Source of the DNA: Pseudomonas cerasi
Lineage (GTDB): Bacteria > Pseudomonadota > Gammaproteobacteria > Pseudomonadales > Pseudomonadaceae
Assembly: GCF_900074915.1 (NCBI RefSeq)
Contig: NZ_LT222319.1
Coordinates: 1,981,001-2,045,000 of the forward strand
Direction: 5' to 3'
Length of the DNA: 64,000 nt
The notes beneath the pieces are model-generated. The model was not told the DNA's origin, did no database searches, and was given only the letters and a program-made list of their open reading frames with translations. The translations under genes were made by a program, and so were the position numbers. This document shows positions 8,062-50,793 of the stretch, piece after piece. Position 1 is the stretch's first letter; the number at the start of each line of letters is the position of its first letter.

Positions 8062-8088
8062 TCAAGCAACCTGCCATCGCGACGATAA
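8062..8088 (+). promoter_or_regulatory. Sigma-28 (FliA) promoter of fliC
   Basis: TCAAGCAA (8062-8069), 11 bp, GACGATAA (8081-8088) fits the FliA consensus TAAAGTTT-N11-GCCGATAA. The -10 ends 81 bp before the fliC ATG, leaving a leader of about 75 nt with GAGGAA upstream of the start codon. The rest of the 328-bp gap shows no gene. Confidence 0.85.
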
Positions 8089-8169: not shown

Positions 8170-9018
8170 ATGGCTTTAACAGTAAACACCAACGTAGCAT
8201 CGTTGAACGTCCAGAAGAACCTGGGTCGCGCTTCCGACGCCCTTTCGACCTCGATGACTCGTCTGTCTTCCGGTCTGAAAATCAACAGCGCCAAAGACGA
8301 CGCTGCTGGCCTGAACATCGCCACCAAGATCAACTCGCAGATCAAAGGTCAGACCATGGCGATCAAAAACGCCAACGACGGTATGTCCATTGCTCAGACC
8401 GCTGAAGGCGCGCTGCAAGAGTCGACCAACATTCTGCAGCGTATGCGTGAACTGGCTGTTCAGTCGCGAAACGACAGCAACAGCGCTACTGACCGCGTTG
8501 CACTGAACAAAGAATTCACCCAGATGAGTTCTGAGCTGACCCGTATCGCCAACAGCACCAACCTGAACGGCAAAAACCTGATCGACGGTTCTGCCAGCAC
8601 CATGACTTTCCAGGTTGGCTCCAACTCCGGCTCCGCGAACCAGATCACTCTGACTCTGAGCGCCAGCTTTGATGCAAACACCCTGGGTGTCGGTTCGGCA
8701 ATCACCATCGTCGGTTCCGACAGTGCTGCTGCAGAGACCAACTTCTCTGCTGCAATGGCCGCTATCGACTCGGCTCTGCAGACCATCAACAACACGCGTT
8801 CTGATCTCGGTGCTGCACAAAACCGTCTGACCAGCACCATCTCCAACCTGCAGAACATCAACGAAAACGCCAGTGCTGCACTGGGTCGTATCCAGGATAC
8901 CGACTTCGCTGCTGAAACTGCACAGCTGACCAAGCAACAGACTCTGCAACAGGCTTCCACCTCTGTTCTGGCTCAGGCTAACCAGCTGCCATCCGCTGTA
9001 CTGAAACTGCTTCAGTAA
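8170..9018 (+). CDS. fliC: Flagellin
   Basis: Filament subunit of 282 residues, exported by the flagellar type III apparatus. The conserved N-terminal D0/D1 helices ([15 protein letters not shown]) and C-terminal D1/D0 (ending SAVLKLLQ) surround a short variable region at residues ~140-205. The flg22 epitope is residues 30-51 and has Asn at 49, where P. syringae flagellins usually have Gln. The flgII-28 epitope is residues 84-111. Serines stand at 143, 164, 176, 183, 193 and 201, the six O-glycosylated positions reported for P. syringae pv. tabaci. It is monocistronic, with a FliA promoter upstream and a terminator downstream. Confidence 0.98.
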
Positions 9019-13658: not shown

Positions 13659-14873
13659 ATGTCCCAGGCCGCCCAACTGACTTCCGCCCTATCTGTTCAG
13701 GCTCAGTACTCCCCGGAACTGGAAAGTCGTCAGGGGCTTGAGCAGGCATTCTCGCTGTTCAATCAAATGTCGGCGCAACTGACCGACTCCTACGGCTTGC
13801 TTGAAGCGCGCGTCACCGAGCTCAAGGGCGAACTGGCTCATGCCGGTGCCCAGCGCCTTCAGGAGCTGGCGGAAAAAGAACGCCTGGCCAACCGACTGCA
13901 GAATCTGCTCGATCTGCTTCCCGGCGGGGTGATCGTCATTGATGGCATGGGCGTCGTGCGCGAAGCCAATCCGGCGGCCATCGACCTGCTTGGTCAGCCG
14001 CTGTTGGGCATGCTCTGGCGTCATGTGATCAGCCGCTGTTTTGCACCCCGTGAAGATGATGGCCACGAAGTCTCGCTCAAGGATGGCCGCAGGCTTTCCA
14101 TTGCCACGCGTTCGCTGGATGCCGAGCCAGGGCAGCTGGTGCTGCTCAATGACCTGACCGAAACCCGTCATCTTCAGGAACAGCTGGCTCGTCACGAGCG
14201 CCTGTCGTCACTGGGCCGTATGGTCGCTTCTCTGGCGCATCAGATTCGTACACCGTTATCCGCCGCCATGATCTACGCCAGCCATTTGACCGAGCAGGAA
14301 CTTCCGGTGGAAACCCAGCAGCGTTTCGCTGCGCGGCTCAAGGATCGTTTGCATGAGCTGGAGCATCAGGTTCGCGACATGCTGGTGTTCGCCCGGGGCG
14401 AGCTGCCGTTGACGGATCGTCTGGAGCCTGGTGATCTGTTTCAGGCGCTGCAAAATGCTGCTGCGACGCATGTTCAGGGCGTGTCGGTACGCTGGCAGTG
14501 CGACAGCATCGATGGCGAGCTGCTGTGCAATCGCGACACATTGGTCGGCGCACTGCTCAATCTGATTGAAAACGCTGTCCAGGCCAGCGCTGGCCGGACA
14601 CTGCTGAAGATTCACGCCTACAGTCGCGGCAATGTGCTGCGGATCTGCTTCAGCGATAACGGCAGCGGCATTGACAAGGCCGGTCTGGCTCGCATCGGTG
14701 AGCCGTTCTTTACCACCAAGACCACCGGCACAGGGCTTGGTCTGGCCGTGGTAACTGCGGTGTCGCGTGCGCATCAGGGGCGCGTGCATTATTTGTCGCG
14801 GGTTGGCCGTGGTACCTGCGCCATTATCAGTCTGCCATTGATCCCGGCTTCCAGTTCGACAGGTAATAACTGA
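13659..14873 (+). CDS. fleS: Flagellar sensor histidine kinase FleS
   Basis: Soluble histidine kinase of 404 residues with no transmembrane segment. A PAS-like domain (LLDLLPGGVIVIDGMGVVREAN) lies around residues 83-170. The HisKA H-box has H194 (SLAHQIRTPLSAA). The HATPase_c domain has DNGSGIDKAGLARIGEPFF and GTGLGL. It phosphorylates FleR, encoded immediately downstream with a 1-nt overlap, to activate middle flagellar genes. The ligand of the PAS domain is unknown. Confidence 0.95.
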   Translation: MSQAAQLTSALSVQAQYSPELESRQGLEQAFSLFNQMSAQLTDSYGLLEARVTELKGELAHAGAQRLQELAEKERLANRLQNLLDLLPGGVIVIDGMGVVREANPAAIDLLGQPLLGMLWRHVISRCFAPREDDGHEVSLKDGRRLSIATRSLDAEPGQLVLLNDLTETRHLQEQLARHERLSSLGRMVASLAHQIRTPLSAAMIYASHLTEQELPVETQQRFAARLKDRLHELEHQVRDMLVFARGELPLTDRLEPGDLFQALQNAAATHVQGVSVRWQCDSIDGELLCNRDTLVGALLNLIENAVQASAGRTLLKIHAYSRGNVLRICFSDNGSGIDKAGLARIGEPFFTTKTTGTGLGLAVVTAVSRAHQGRVHYLSRVGRGTCAIISLPLIPASSSTGNN

Positions 14874-45120: not shown

Positions 45121-45222
45121 CGTGAACGTCTACTCTTTCTACATTGTTTGCTCAAGTGATGCCTCAATGCGGCCGATAACTGTATCAGGCTGCACATGCT
45201 CCATTTTTTGTTGGGCCCCGGT

Positions 45223-46098
45223 ATGAACCGCCCTGTAGAAGTTGCAACACGACCCAAACTGGCTTTGCAGTCCTACCTGGACGCATTGTTGTACGACGCG
45301 ACTGAAGTGCTCGAAGAGCCCGTCAGCAGCATCGATGAATTTCAGGCGGCTGTGCTCGAAGAGCAGGCCTTTGATGCGCGGATGCAAGCGCAGGTCAAGC
45401 CGCTGGCCGTCGCGGTTGCCGCACCGGCTCCGGTGGCGGTAGCGGTCAAGGTTGAGGCGCCTGCGCCAGTGGTTGAAGTCGCTCCGGTGATCGTTGCCGA
45501 AGCGGTGCAGGTTGAAGTGGCTCAGGTTGAGGAGGCAGTGCCAACCGTTGCGCTGGTAGAACCGGTCGCCGAGTTGAGCACGCTGGCAGCCCAGCGTACG
45601 CCGACACCACCGCCGACCAGTGATGGTCGTCCGGCATGGGCTGCCGAGCCGTTCGAATGCCTGTTGTTCGATGTGGCCGGTCTGACACTGGCGGTGCCGT
45701 TGGTGTGCCTGGGGTCGATTTATCCGCTGGCGGGGCAGGAGCTGACGCCGCTGTTCGGTCAGCCGGACTGGTTTCTCGGGATCCTGCCTTGCCAGGCAGG
45801 CAACCTGAAAGTGTTGGATACGGCGCGCTGGATCATGCCTGATCGCTACCGCGACGATTTTCGCCAGGGATTGCAGTACGTGATTTCGGTGCAGGGATAC
45901 GAGTGGGGGCTGGCGGTGCATCAGGTCAGTCGTTCGTTGCGTCTTGATCCGAACGAGATCAAATGGCGCGCGCAGCGAGGTCATCGTCCATGGCTGGCGG
46001 GCACGGTCATCGAGCACATGTGCGCGTTGCTGGATGTTGCAGAGTTGGCCGAGCTGATAGCCAGTGGCGCGGTCAAGCAGTTGAACAAGTCGAAATAA
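45223..46098 (+). CDS. parP: CheW-domain protein ParP
   Basis: About 291 residues. A short helical N terminus (KLALQSYLDALLYDATEVLE) and a long Val/Ala/Pro/Glu-rich linker (residues ~70-140) lead to a C-terminal CheW/AIF domain (FECLLFDVAGLTLAVPLVCL). In Vibrio, ParP connects CheA and receptors to ParC through this domain. The start at ATG 45223 is a choice by family; 45196 is also in frame and no strong ribosome-binding site decides. Confidence 0.85.
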   Translation: MNRPVEVATRPKLALQSYLDALLYDATEVLEEPVSSIDEFQAAVLEEQAFDARMQAQVKPLAVAVAAPAPVAVAVKVEAPAPVVEVAPVIVAEAVQVEVAQVEEAVPTVALVEPVAELSTLAAQRTPTPPPTSDGRPAWAAEPFECLLFDVAGLTLAVPLVCLGSIYPLAGQELTPLFGQPDWFLGILPCQAGNLKVLDTARWIMPDRYRDDFRQGLQYVISVQGYEWGLAVHQVSRSLRLDPNEIKWRAQRGHRPWLAGTVIEHMCALLDVAELAELIASGAVKQLNKSK

Positions 46099-47965: not shown

Positions 47966-48700
47966 TCAGCTTTGCATCGACCCGCCAGCCAGCGCACACA
48001 GCTCGATGGGGGCGAGGATGTGAATCTCTTTGCCCTCGGCAGAAATCAGCTGATTTTGCTGGAAACGGGTAAATACACGGGACACCGTCTCGACTGCCAG
48101 ACCCAGGTGATTACCGATTTCATTGCGCGACATGCTCAGTCGGAACTGATTGGCCGAAAAGCCTCTGGCGCGGAAGCGTGCAGACAGATTGATCAGAAAG
48201 GTGGCGATACGCTCATCGGCGGTCTTTTTCGAGAGCAGCAGCATCATTTGCTGATCGTCGCGGATCTCACGGCTCATGACGCGCATCAACTGCCGACGCA
48301 GCTGCGGCAGTTTCACGGACAGTTCGTCCAGACGCTCGAAAGGGATCTCGCAGACCGATGTGGTTTCCAGTGCCTGGGCCGAGACCGGGTAAGCCTCGGC
48401 GTCCATGCCTGACATGCCCACCAGTTCGCTGGGCAGGTGAAAGCCGGTGAGCTGTTCTTCACCGCTGTCACTGATATTGAAGGTTTTCAGTGCCCCGGAA
48501 CGCACCGCGTAGACCGACTCGAAGGTATCCCCCTGACGAAACAGAAACTCGCCCTTTTTCAGGGGGCGGCCGCGTTTGACGATCTGGTCAAGGCAGTCCA
48601 TGTCTTCGGTATTCAACGAAAGGGGCAGGCACAACGGCGCGAGACTGCAATCCTTGCAATGAGCCTGGGTTTGAGCGCGCGACTTGACTGGCTCGGACAT
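47966..48700 (-). CDS. anr: Anaerobic regulator Anr (Fnr family)
   Basis: CRP/Fnr-type regulator of 244 residues. The oxygen-sensing [4Fe-4S] cysteines are C15, C18, C24 ([10 protein letters not shown]) and C117 (SVCEIPF). The cAMP-binding-like domain is followed by a helix-turn-helix ([20 protein letters not shown]) with the E-SR recognition pattern. ATG 48700 is placed by AAGGA 8 nt upstream; GTG 48703 is also in frame. It activates low-oxygen genes; a matching site lies before hemN at 50780-50793. Confidence 0.96.
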
Positions 48701-48789
48701 CACTTAATTCCTTGTGGGAAATCACACATAAGCTGTAAGGGTAACTCACCCGTGCTTGTCGGGGCCAGCCTGCAAATCTTTCGCAGTCA

Positions 48790-48816
48790 TCAAGGTCGCA
48801 GACTGTCTGCCGATAA
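48790..48816 (+). promoter_or_regulatory. Sigma-28 (FliA) promoter of the FlxA-like gene
   Basis: TCAAGGTC (48790-48797), 11 bp, GCCGATAA (48809-48816): the -10 is a perfect match to consensus and the spacing is the same as at fliC. It ends 36 bp before the ATG at 48853. Confidence 0.88.
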
Positions 48817-48852
48817 CCCTGTATTCCTTCAGCCACATCAGGATGCCTTGGC

Positions 48853-49320
48853 ATGTCAACGACACTCCCGTTGATCAACAGCATTACGATACGGACTGCG
48901 ACCTCGCAGACCACCTACAGTTATGCCGAGCAAAGCACTGCCGAGACATCTGCAAGCGAGACAAAGGGCGTACAGGTCAATTTGTCCGCAGAAGGCAAGG
49001 CGGCTGCTTCATCGTCCTCCAAAAACGCCGATATCGAGCAGAGCGGCCTGCCTGCTTCCGTGCAGAAGATCCTCAAGGCGATTCGCGAGCTTCAGCGCAG
49101 GATCGAGGAAACCATGGAGCAGATCCAGAAGGCCCTGAATGACCCCAGCCTGAGCCCCGAGGAGCGACGGACCAAGGCCGCGGCACTGCAGACCGTGCTC
49201 AGCACGTTGCAGGCGCAGGTGAGCAATTCCACGGCCGATATGTCGTCGCTCATGAACGGCCTGGGCTCCAGTGACGCCGACAAGACCAAGGCGGGGATGC
49301 TGGTTCTGGCCAAAATGTAG
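48853..49320 (+). CDS. FlxA-like coiled-coil protein, FliA-controlled
   Basis: Small protein of 155 residues. The N-terminal ~65 residues are Ser/Thr-rich and polar. Residues ~68-130 form a predicted coiled coil (VQKILKAIRELQRRIEETME; LQTVLSTLQAQVSNSTADM). There is no signal peptide or membrane helix. The overall plan fits the FlxA family, whose E. coli member is transcribed by FliA, and a near-consensus FliA promoter lies just upstream here. The gene is alone between anr and hemN, on the opposite strand from its neighbours. Function unknown; export by the flagellar apparatus is possible. Confidence 0.75.
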   Translation: MSTTLPLINSITIRTATSQTTYSYAEQSTAETSASETKGVQVNLSAEGKAAASSSSKNADIEQSGLPASVQKILKAIRELQRRIEETMEQIQKALNDPSLSPEERRTKAAALQTVLSTLQAQVSNSTADMSSLMNGLGSSDADKTKAGMLVLAKM

Positions 49321-49334
49321 AACCTGGACGCGGG

Positions 49335-50717
49335 TCATATCACTCGGGAGAACTGCTGTCTGTTGTGCCGGGTCAGGTAAGCATCGAAGACCATGCACAC
49401 TGCGCGTACCAGCAGTCGGCCTGCCGGTCTGACTTCAATGCCCGTCTCACTCAGCGTAATCAGCCCGTCGCTGGCCATGCCGAGCAGTTGCGGCCACGCT
49501 TCGCTGAAATAGTCCCTGAAATCGATGCAAAAGGTCTTCTCGATCTTGCCGAAATCCAGGGTGAAGCCGCAGATCAATTGCTGAATGATGGCGCGCCTGA
49601 TGCGGTCGTCATCGTGGCAGATCAGTCCACGTCGAGTTGCGGGCTGGTCGCTGTCCAGCAGCCTCAGATACTCGCTCAGGTCGCTGCTGTTCTGGCTGTA
49701 CAGCTCACCGACCTGACTGATGGCCGAGACACCCAGGCCGATCAGGTCGCAGTGACCGTGCGTGGTATAGCCCTGAAAGTTGCGTTGCAGGGTCAGGTCT
49801 TCCTGAGCGATGGCCAGCTCGTCGTCGGGCAGGGCGAAATGGTCCATGCCGATGTAGCGATAACCGGCGTTGCCCAATTGCTCGACGGTGCGCTCCAGCA
49901 TCAGCAGTTTGCTCGCTGCATCCGGCAGATCCGCAGCGTCGATGCGCCGCTGCGGCATGAAGCGCTCGGGCAGATGCGCATAGTTGAACACCGACAACCG
50001 GTCGGGCTGCAGATCGATGACCTTGTCCACTGTGTGGCTGAAAGTCTGCGGGTTCTGTGCGGGCAGGCCGTAGATCAGATCAATATTCACCGAACGAAAT
50101 TGCAGCGTGCGCGCCGCTTCGACTATCGCGCGGGTCTCTTCCAGGCTTTGCATGCGGTTGATCGCCCGCTGCACCGTCGGGTCAAGGTCCTGCACGCCCA
50201 GGCTGACCCGGTTGAAACCCAGCTCGCGCAGCAGTCCCATCGTCGACCAGTCCGCTTCGCGAGGATCAATCTCGATGCCATAGTCGCCGGAATCGTCGTC
50301 CAGCAGGTTGAAGTGTGAGCGCAGTTGCGCCATCAAGCGGCGCAGTTCGTCGTGACTGAGAAAGGTCGGCGTGCCGCCGCCCAGGTGCAGTTGCTCTACC
50401 ACCTGATCGGGCGCCAGGTGACAGGCGAGCATTCGCATCTCGTGTTCGAGCCGTTTCAGGTAGGCCTGAGCGCGGCCGCGGTCGTTGGTGATGACTTTGT
50501 TGCAGGCGCAGTAGTAGCAAATGTTCGCGCAGAAGGGCAGATGCACGTAAAGCGACAACGGACGTGATGCCTTGCGGCTTTCGCGCAGCGCATGCAGCAG
50601 GTCGAAGGCGCCCACTTGGGTATCGAACTGCGCTGCAGTCGGATAGGACGTATAGCGCGGCCCCGACACATCGTAACGATGGATCAGGTCTGAATCCCAA
50701 CGAATGGCGTCAAACAT
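49335..50717 (-). CDS. hemN: Oxygen-independent coproporphyrinogen III oxidase HemN
   Basis: Radical SAM enzyme of 460 residues for anaerobic haem synthesis. The [4Fe-4S]/SAM cluster cysteines are C63, C67 and C70 (PFCANICYYC), followed by CNK. The GGGTPTF motif is present. ATG 50717 (MFDAIRWDSDLI) gives family length; the upstream in-frame codon at 50756 is not needed. A perfect Anr box lies 63-76 bp upstream. It converges with the FlxA-like gene, 14 bp away. Confidence 0.96.
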   Translation of the reverse strand: MFDAIRWDSDLIHRYDVSGPRYTSYPTAAQFDTQVGAFDLLHALRESRKASRPLSLYVHLPFCANICYYCACNKVITNDRGRAQAYLKRLEHEMRMLACHLAPDQVVEQLHLGGGTPTFLSHDELRRLMAQLRSHFNLLDDDSGDYGIEIDPREADWSTMGLLRELGFNRVSLGVQDLDPTVQRAINRMQSLEETRAIVEAARTLQFRSVNIDLIYGLPAQNPQTFSHTVDKVIDLQPDRLSVFNYAHLPERFMPQRRIDAADLPDAASKLLMLERTVEQLGNAGYRYIGMDHFALPDDELAIAQEDLTLQRNFQGYTTHGHCDLIGLGVSAISQVGELYSQNSSDLSEYLRLLDSDQPATRRGLICHDDDRIRRAIIQQLICGFTLDFGKIEKTFCIDFRDYFSEAWPQLLGMASDGLITLSETGIEVRPAGRLLVRAVCMVFDAYLTRHNRQQFSRVI

Positions 50718-50779
50718 GCGCGCGTTTCCCGGTCTGGCTGGCGATGTCGCGAGCATACGCAGGAGGCCGGGGGGCGGCG

Positions 50780-50793
50780 TTGATGTGGATCAA
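50780..50793 (-). promoter_or_regulatory. Anr/Fnr box upstream of hemN
   Basis: TTGAT-GTGG-ATCAA is a perfect palindrome matching the Fnr/Anr consensus TTGAT-N4-ATCAA. Centred about 70 bp before the hemN ATG, consistent with activation near -40. It sits in the short gap between hemN and the SafE-like gene. Confidence 0.92.

Follow-up and report, generated by a model that had tools for sequence, protein, structure and literature searches.

The 155-codon gene at positions 48853-49320 (forward strand) stands alone between anr and hemN and is preceded by what looks like a promoter for the flagellar sigma factor FliA (sigma-28), which raises the question of whether it is a late flagellar gene and, if so, what its product does. 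It lies in a window of 64,000 nucleotides, the whole stretch of DNA that was analysed (G000:C1:1981001-2045000, within the 6.3 Mb source genome). An earlier note had described a lone gene for 155 residues, oriented opposite to its surroundings, and this is what we found: both the divergent neighbour anr (47966-48703) and the convergent neighbour hemN (49335-50756) are on the reverse strand. The two names, taken over from the earlier note, are presumptive; the genes serve here as synteny markers outside the unit, and 59 distinct loci hold the 155-codon gene together with both. Among named genomes, the 155-residue protein has matches at 7 loci, and the closest genes are those of P. caricapapayae, Pseudomonas sp. 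KUIN-1, P. tremae, P. congelans, P. graminis, P. avellanae and P. amygdali, from which the source is taken to belong to the P. syringae group. Omega values (NG86) against 8 relatives are 0.10-0.22 for the gene, where anr has 0.01-0.05 and hemN 0.09-0.13; the gene therefore encodes a real, moderately constrained protein; as judged from these values, it is under purifying selection. Around the gene, no Rfam match at the gathering score was found and, by consensus search, no sigma-70 promoter or terminator; a scan of the protein against NCBIfam gave no family over cut-off.

The putative promoter occupies positions 48790-48816 (forward strand) and consists of a -35 element of the FliA type, TCAAG (48790-48794), and, 14 nucleotides further on, the -10 element GCCGATAA (48809-48816); the ATG follows 36 nucleotides after the -10. 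This TCAAG-N14-GCCGATAA site is the TCAAGGTC-N11-GCCGATAA sequence that the earlier note had placed ahead of the gene, and the class IV promoter consensus of Pseudomonas is, in the section of PMC7286023 that gives it, of the TAAAGTTT-N11-GCCGATAA type. Within the window, TCAAG...GCCGATAA occurs at 2 places, versus 0.01 expected from shuffles, and genome-wide the pattern has 5 matches, versus 1 for the reversed control; a site with the full score of 13/13 occurs in none of ten dinucleotide shuffles of the window. As an internal yardstick, the fliC promoter (TCAAG-N14-GACGATAA, 8062-8088, forward strand; flagellin gene start at 8170) has the same spacing of N14, as had been claimed, but its -10 has one mismatch, and the site at 48790-48816 is therefore closer to the consensus than that of fliC. 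The window has a second full-consensus site, TCAAG-N15-GCCGATAA at 45152-45179, directly 5' of a putative CheW-like ORF (45196-46098), which suggests that the chemotaxis run contains a late promoter of its own. Outside the window, full-consensus FliA-type sites are present at G000:C1:590029-590055, C1:5437712-5437738 and C1:1962168-1962195.

Conservation of the site was examined upstream of relatives of the gene. Sites were scored out of 13, and a locus passed with a score of at least 11 and a start codon 20-50 nucleotides after the site; only TCAAG was accepted as the -35 in a first set of 32 loci, TCAAG or TAAAG in all later counts. Distinct loci numbered 113 of 119, with L047, L051, L078, L079, L034 and L072 left out as repeats of a place or protein. 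There are no further identical proteins among the 113; L074 and L075 share one site and were both kept, as were, among the 54 loci elsewhere than between anr and hemN, several poor rows (L055 with no usable start, the doubtful L077, L094 from a plasmid-type operon, L114 and L027).

In the first 32 loci, all with anr and hemN, the best site scores 10-13 and has N14 spacing in 31 cases and N13 in one, while base-shuffled upstream regions (single-base shuffles) reach 11 in 0.7%. All 59 distinct syntenic relatives have a FliA-type site scoring 10-13 (N14 in 58, N13 in one); 57 pass the promoter test and the other two score 10. Length-matched random stretches taken from the 59-locus set reach 11 in 1.6% of 1645 cases and never 12 or 13, and random 230-mers score 11 in 1.6% of 2204. 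Of the 54 relatives at other genomic places, 40 pass as well; among the 14 that fail, eight score 10, two score 11 with the start outside 20-50 nucleotides, and four score 8-9. When 107 sites are stacked, T-[CA]-AAG of the -35 is conserved and the -10 columns GCCGATA are informative, with the last A uninformative and most spacer columns near random, a pattern that fits a promoter and that relatedness by itself would not be expected to give.

Another genus of the family, labelled g45, provides intervals without the gene: in all seven genomes examined, the distance between anr and hemN is 143-259 bp, the gene is absent, no ORF exceeds 89 codons and no FliA-type site scores above 9/13. Some of these intervals (L163-L169) hold ORFs of 58-89 codons, with no FliA-type site. 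A further g45 genome, G219, carries the gene between anr and hemN, with a site that scores 11 (L089). Gene and promoter thus seem to come and go together. Membership in the FliA regulon is marked by a promoter of the TAAAGTTT-N11-GCCGATAA type, and TCAAGGTC-N11-GCCGATAA at 48790-48816 is of this type and conserved; with the sites of the relatives, what had been a single match becomes strong evidence. The promoter, how well it is conserved, the way it accompanies the gene and the selection on the coding region can all be read from the DNA itself; on these grounds, the 155-codon gene is very probably a flagellar gene.

The same cannot be said of the low-oxygen regulon, in which the earlier note had seen the gene embedded. 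The Anr/FNR box is TTGAT-N4-ATCAA. Between 48700 and 48850, no Anr-type box with up to two mismatches was found; a perfect one, TTGATGTGGATCAA, is present at 50780-50793, where it belongs to the region upstream of hemN and appears to fit hemN itself. It is position alone that links the 155-codon gene to low oxygen.

A protein search of 95 genomes (source genome included) gave matches in 42, all of the same genus. With a subfamily profile built from 22 syntenic proteins, relatives were identified in at least 83 of the 198 genomes of Pseudomonadaceae, each scored for up to 19 candidates, and, across the class, in 2 of 274 genomes: the source genome and one doubtful match with three stops. A plasmid search found relatives on two Shewanella plasmids. 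One of them (L173, positions 2318-2785 of NZ_CP076856.1) has a protein sequence identical to that of L094; it is the second gene after a 241-codon gene on a conjugative plasmid, in a stretch that also contains ISPa33, and upstream of it no FliA-type site scored 10 or higher.

FliA itself has a match over cut-off in 190 of the 198 family genomes; the eight without one, identified by their weak E-values, are G103, G106, G122, G126, G134, G138, G146 and G274. A relative of the 155-codon gene was found in none of these eight versus at least 83 of the 190 FliA-bearing genomes, a comparison made by eye on genomes that are not independent of each other. Among the up to 19 candidates scored in each, 107 of the 190 FliA-bearing genomes gave no relative, so that flagella as such seem not to require the gene. 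The relatives fall into two subfamilies, with up to three members seen per genome. The source genome has three: the 155-codon gene, L039 (C1:3360042) with the promoter TAAAG-N14-GCCGATAG, and the FlxA-like L001 (C1:1330721) with a weaker FliA-type site of 10/13. Proteins of the second, FlxA-like subfamily (L080-L088, L099-L115) have C-terminal ends such as NTTA, STTA or SASA; their genes are found at varied genomic places and mostly have FliA-type sites.

In E. coli, flxA encodes a FliA-driven small helical protein of unknown function. The earlier note had called the 155-residue protein FlxA-like and had named a profile search against the FlxA family as a check, and the outcome is divided. The protein itself reaches 17.1 bits with Pfam FlxA (PF14282), below the gathering cut-off of 26.3 bits, and membership in this Pfam family was rejected on this test. 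Its FlxA score is also lower than those of two unrelated families, baculovirus PEP_C (25.5 bits) and P16-Arc (18.5 bits), neither of which is over its own cut-off; PEP_C, the best Pfam match by E-value (1.5e-5, cut-off 38), was taken as coiled-coil noise. What stands is a set of profile links to Pseudomonas proteins, a few of which are over the cut-off: at E <= 0.01, FlxA is matched by 9 of the 22 aligned relatives (best 24.8 bits) and no other family by as many, and 3 of 10 scanned proteins of the second subfamily pass (29.9, 27.5 and 31.5 bits), the other seven having no FlxA match at the limits used. L001 passes the Pfam FlxA cut-off and is recovered by the profile of the subfamily of the 155-residue protein (E 1.8e-8); at the level of these profiles, it offers a possible link between this subfamily and FlxA that is independent. 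An hhalign comparison of 85 proteins of this subfamily with 23 of the second aligns 84 columns with a probability of 99.5% (E 1.4e-22), values that are inflated by coiled-coil composition and come from sets that are not independent, because all of the second set but L001 was gathered with the profile or sequence of the first subfamily. Over the class, the FlxA model matches 19 of 274 genomes, six of them over the cut-off, source genome included. From these profile matches, it is a reasonable guess that the 155-residue protein belongs to a FlxA-like superfamily.

AlphaFold2 places helices at residues 68-95, 102-136 and 141-152, in agreement with the earlier label 'coiled-coil', and gives residues 1-55 a pLDDT below 50; over the whole model, the mean is 62.9, a moderate confidence. 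The product is thus predicted to have a disordered N-terminus, a helical hairpin (68-95, 102-136) and a last helix; along the sequence, the disordered, Ser/Thr-rich N-terminus is followed by the motifs VxLS (residues 42-45) and DIxxSGLP (60-67), the helical hairpin and the C-terminal helix. A PDB fold search with the model returned 562 matches at E <= 10 with no specific relative among them (best E 0.30), and a sequence search of solved structures gave a best E of 0.02 (a phosphoprotein chain) and further matches up to E 1 that are mostly coiled coils. V-x-[LIF]-S is present in 78 of 85 members of the subfamily of the 155-residue protein. V-x-L-S is also present in 18 of 20 FlgM sequences (counted by eye in 20 of 25 loci, L138-L157); FlgM of the source genome has FSLS.

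Exported flagellar proteins are typically cysteine-poor, and for this reason export is the preferred reading for the 155-residue protein. Cysteine makes up 0.02% of the family (it occurs in just 3 of 107 proteins) versus 0.99% in 58 ORFs of the window, which carry presumptive names and some of which may be spurious, and aromatic residues are rare in the family. Serine, threonine, asparagine and glutamine account for 46% of residues 1-50 of the 155-residue protein, with 36% in the flagellin of the window and 34% in its FliD-like ORF. There are counter-examples: the N-terminus of a sensor-kinase-like ORF (13659-14873) has 38% of these residues, the subfamily averages 29% over 45 residues, and cysteine is missing from 17 of the 58 ORFs, among them the 155-codon gene, membrane ORFs and the FliS-like ORF. 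Composition and predicted disorder are thus consistent with a substrate of flagellar type III export, with these exceptions, and the composition of the sequence is a weak argument for export.

We propose that sigma-28 (FliA) would transcribe the 155-codon gene as a class IV, late flagellar gene, which would be switched on when FlgM is exported, after completion of the hook, and which would be one of two or three FliA-driven relatives in the source genome. The product would be small and soluble, with a helical hairpin behind a disordered N-terminus; most likely, the flagellar export apparatus would handle it as a minor late substrate, and it would end up outside the cell or in the filament or hook region. 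It would tune the flagellum rather than build it, because in many genomes of the family that have FliA no relative was found. As a whole, this reading of a FliA-driven late flagellar gene with a minor export substrate that tunes the flagellum seems fairly probable to us. Its parts differ: from promoter and conservation, the gene would in all likelihood depend on FliA in the cell, export of the protein is a tentative suggestion with slightly less than an even chance, and the tuning role is speculative.

The product could instead stay in the cell as a FliA-dependent cytoplasmic helper, comparable to FliT, FlgN or FliJ: a hairpin protein that would act as a chaperone or would regulate late export or the motor. 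The helical hairpin of the AlphaFold2 model would suit such a role, as would a weak match to FliT (E 0.015, 16.6 bits), but this match is below the cut-off of 29.5 bits, for which reason a FliT-like chaperone was rejected by sequence, and it is weaker than those to several unrelated coiled-coil families. The long disordered N-terminus also argues against a helper of this kind, as does the lack of a PDB fold match better than E 0.30, and we regard it as rather unlikely.

An anti-sigma-28 protein like FlgM, which would feed back on FliA, was considered as the main reading and rejected after profile comparison. Both FlgM and the family have a GxxVxLS-like segment that follows a variable N-terminus and precedes helices, and flgM is in part a class IV gene in Pseudomonas, according to the portion of PMC8036289 that treats it. 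However, the profile comparison has a probability of 18% over 25 columns, all in this one segment, the helices do not align, and the 25 Pfam families listed for the 155-residue protein do not include FlgM; the common segment is weak evidence at the level of sequence, and an anti-sigma function seems very improbable. Less probable still, and in our view remote, is a promoter match by chance or as a relict, with a gene unrelated to flagella. A site in 59/59 syntenic loci (scores of 10-13) that is missing from 7/7 empty intervals argues against it and supports the late flagellar gene that the earlier note had suggested, and of the 54 relatives located elsewhere, 40 have a promoter of the same type upstream.

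If the proposed FliA-timed export substrate is taken further, the Pseudomonadaceae could have a diversified family of secreted hairpin proteins timed by FliA, with VxLS, which they share with FlgM, as a common signal for late export or chaperone docking; these proteins would compete with FlgM for the flagellar channel or follow it through, and so tune the length of the FliA pulse. This is a conjecture that we consider unlikely. The flagellum has been studied thoroughly, and genes that depend on FliA but have no known function are among the last of its parts to lack an assignment; a promoter that tracks a protein family across a genus, also at different places, yields late flagellar candidates for joint study.

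A FliA-like motif was reported in 2011 before PSPTO_5635 and PSPTO_5638, conserved proteins of unknown function of P. syringae DC3000, in the relevant part of PMC3247240, and the 155-codon gene may be among these two. For the starts of putative RpoF genes in DC3000 (its Table S4), the text of the same paper gives a count of 27. In the open-licence papers searched, PSPTO_5635 was not found outside PMC3247240. Nor was a description of the family of the 155-residue protein in Pseudomonas found in open-licence papers. In P. aeruginosa PAO1, we take PA1545 to be the gene between anr and hemN, and it may be a relative. In the passages that name it, PA1545 is a hypothetical protein that is mutated in drug-resistant lineages and, elsewhere, a hypothetical protein with an entry in a binding table; it also occurs in PMC12132448.

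When compared with known systems, the 155-residue protein resembles FlxA of E. coli and PF14282 in being a small helical protein that would be FliA-driven, and differs from the FlxA type in having the VxLS and DIxxSGLP motifs and in lacking the NTTA/STTA-like C-terminal end of L001. With FlgM (PF04316), which is exported late according to the pertinent part of PMC8036289, the family shares the variable N-terminus and the VxLS segment, whereas the helical parts do not align and the probability is the 18% given above. PSPTO_5635 and PSPTO_5638 of DC3000, as they appear in the section of PMC3247240 concerned, are conserved P. syringae proteins of unknown function that, like it, have a FliA-type motif ahead of their genes.
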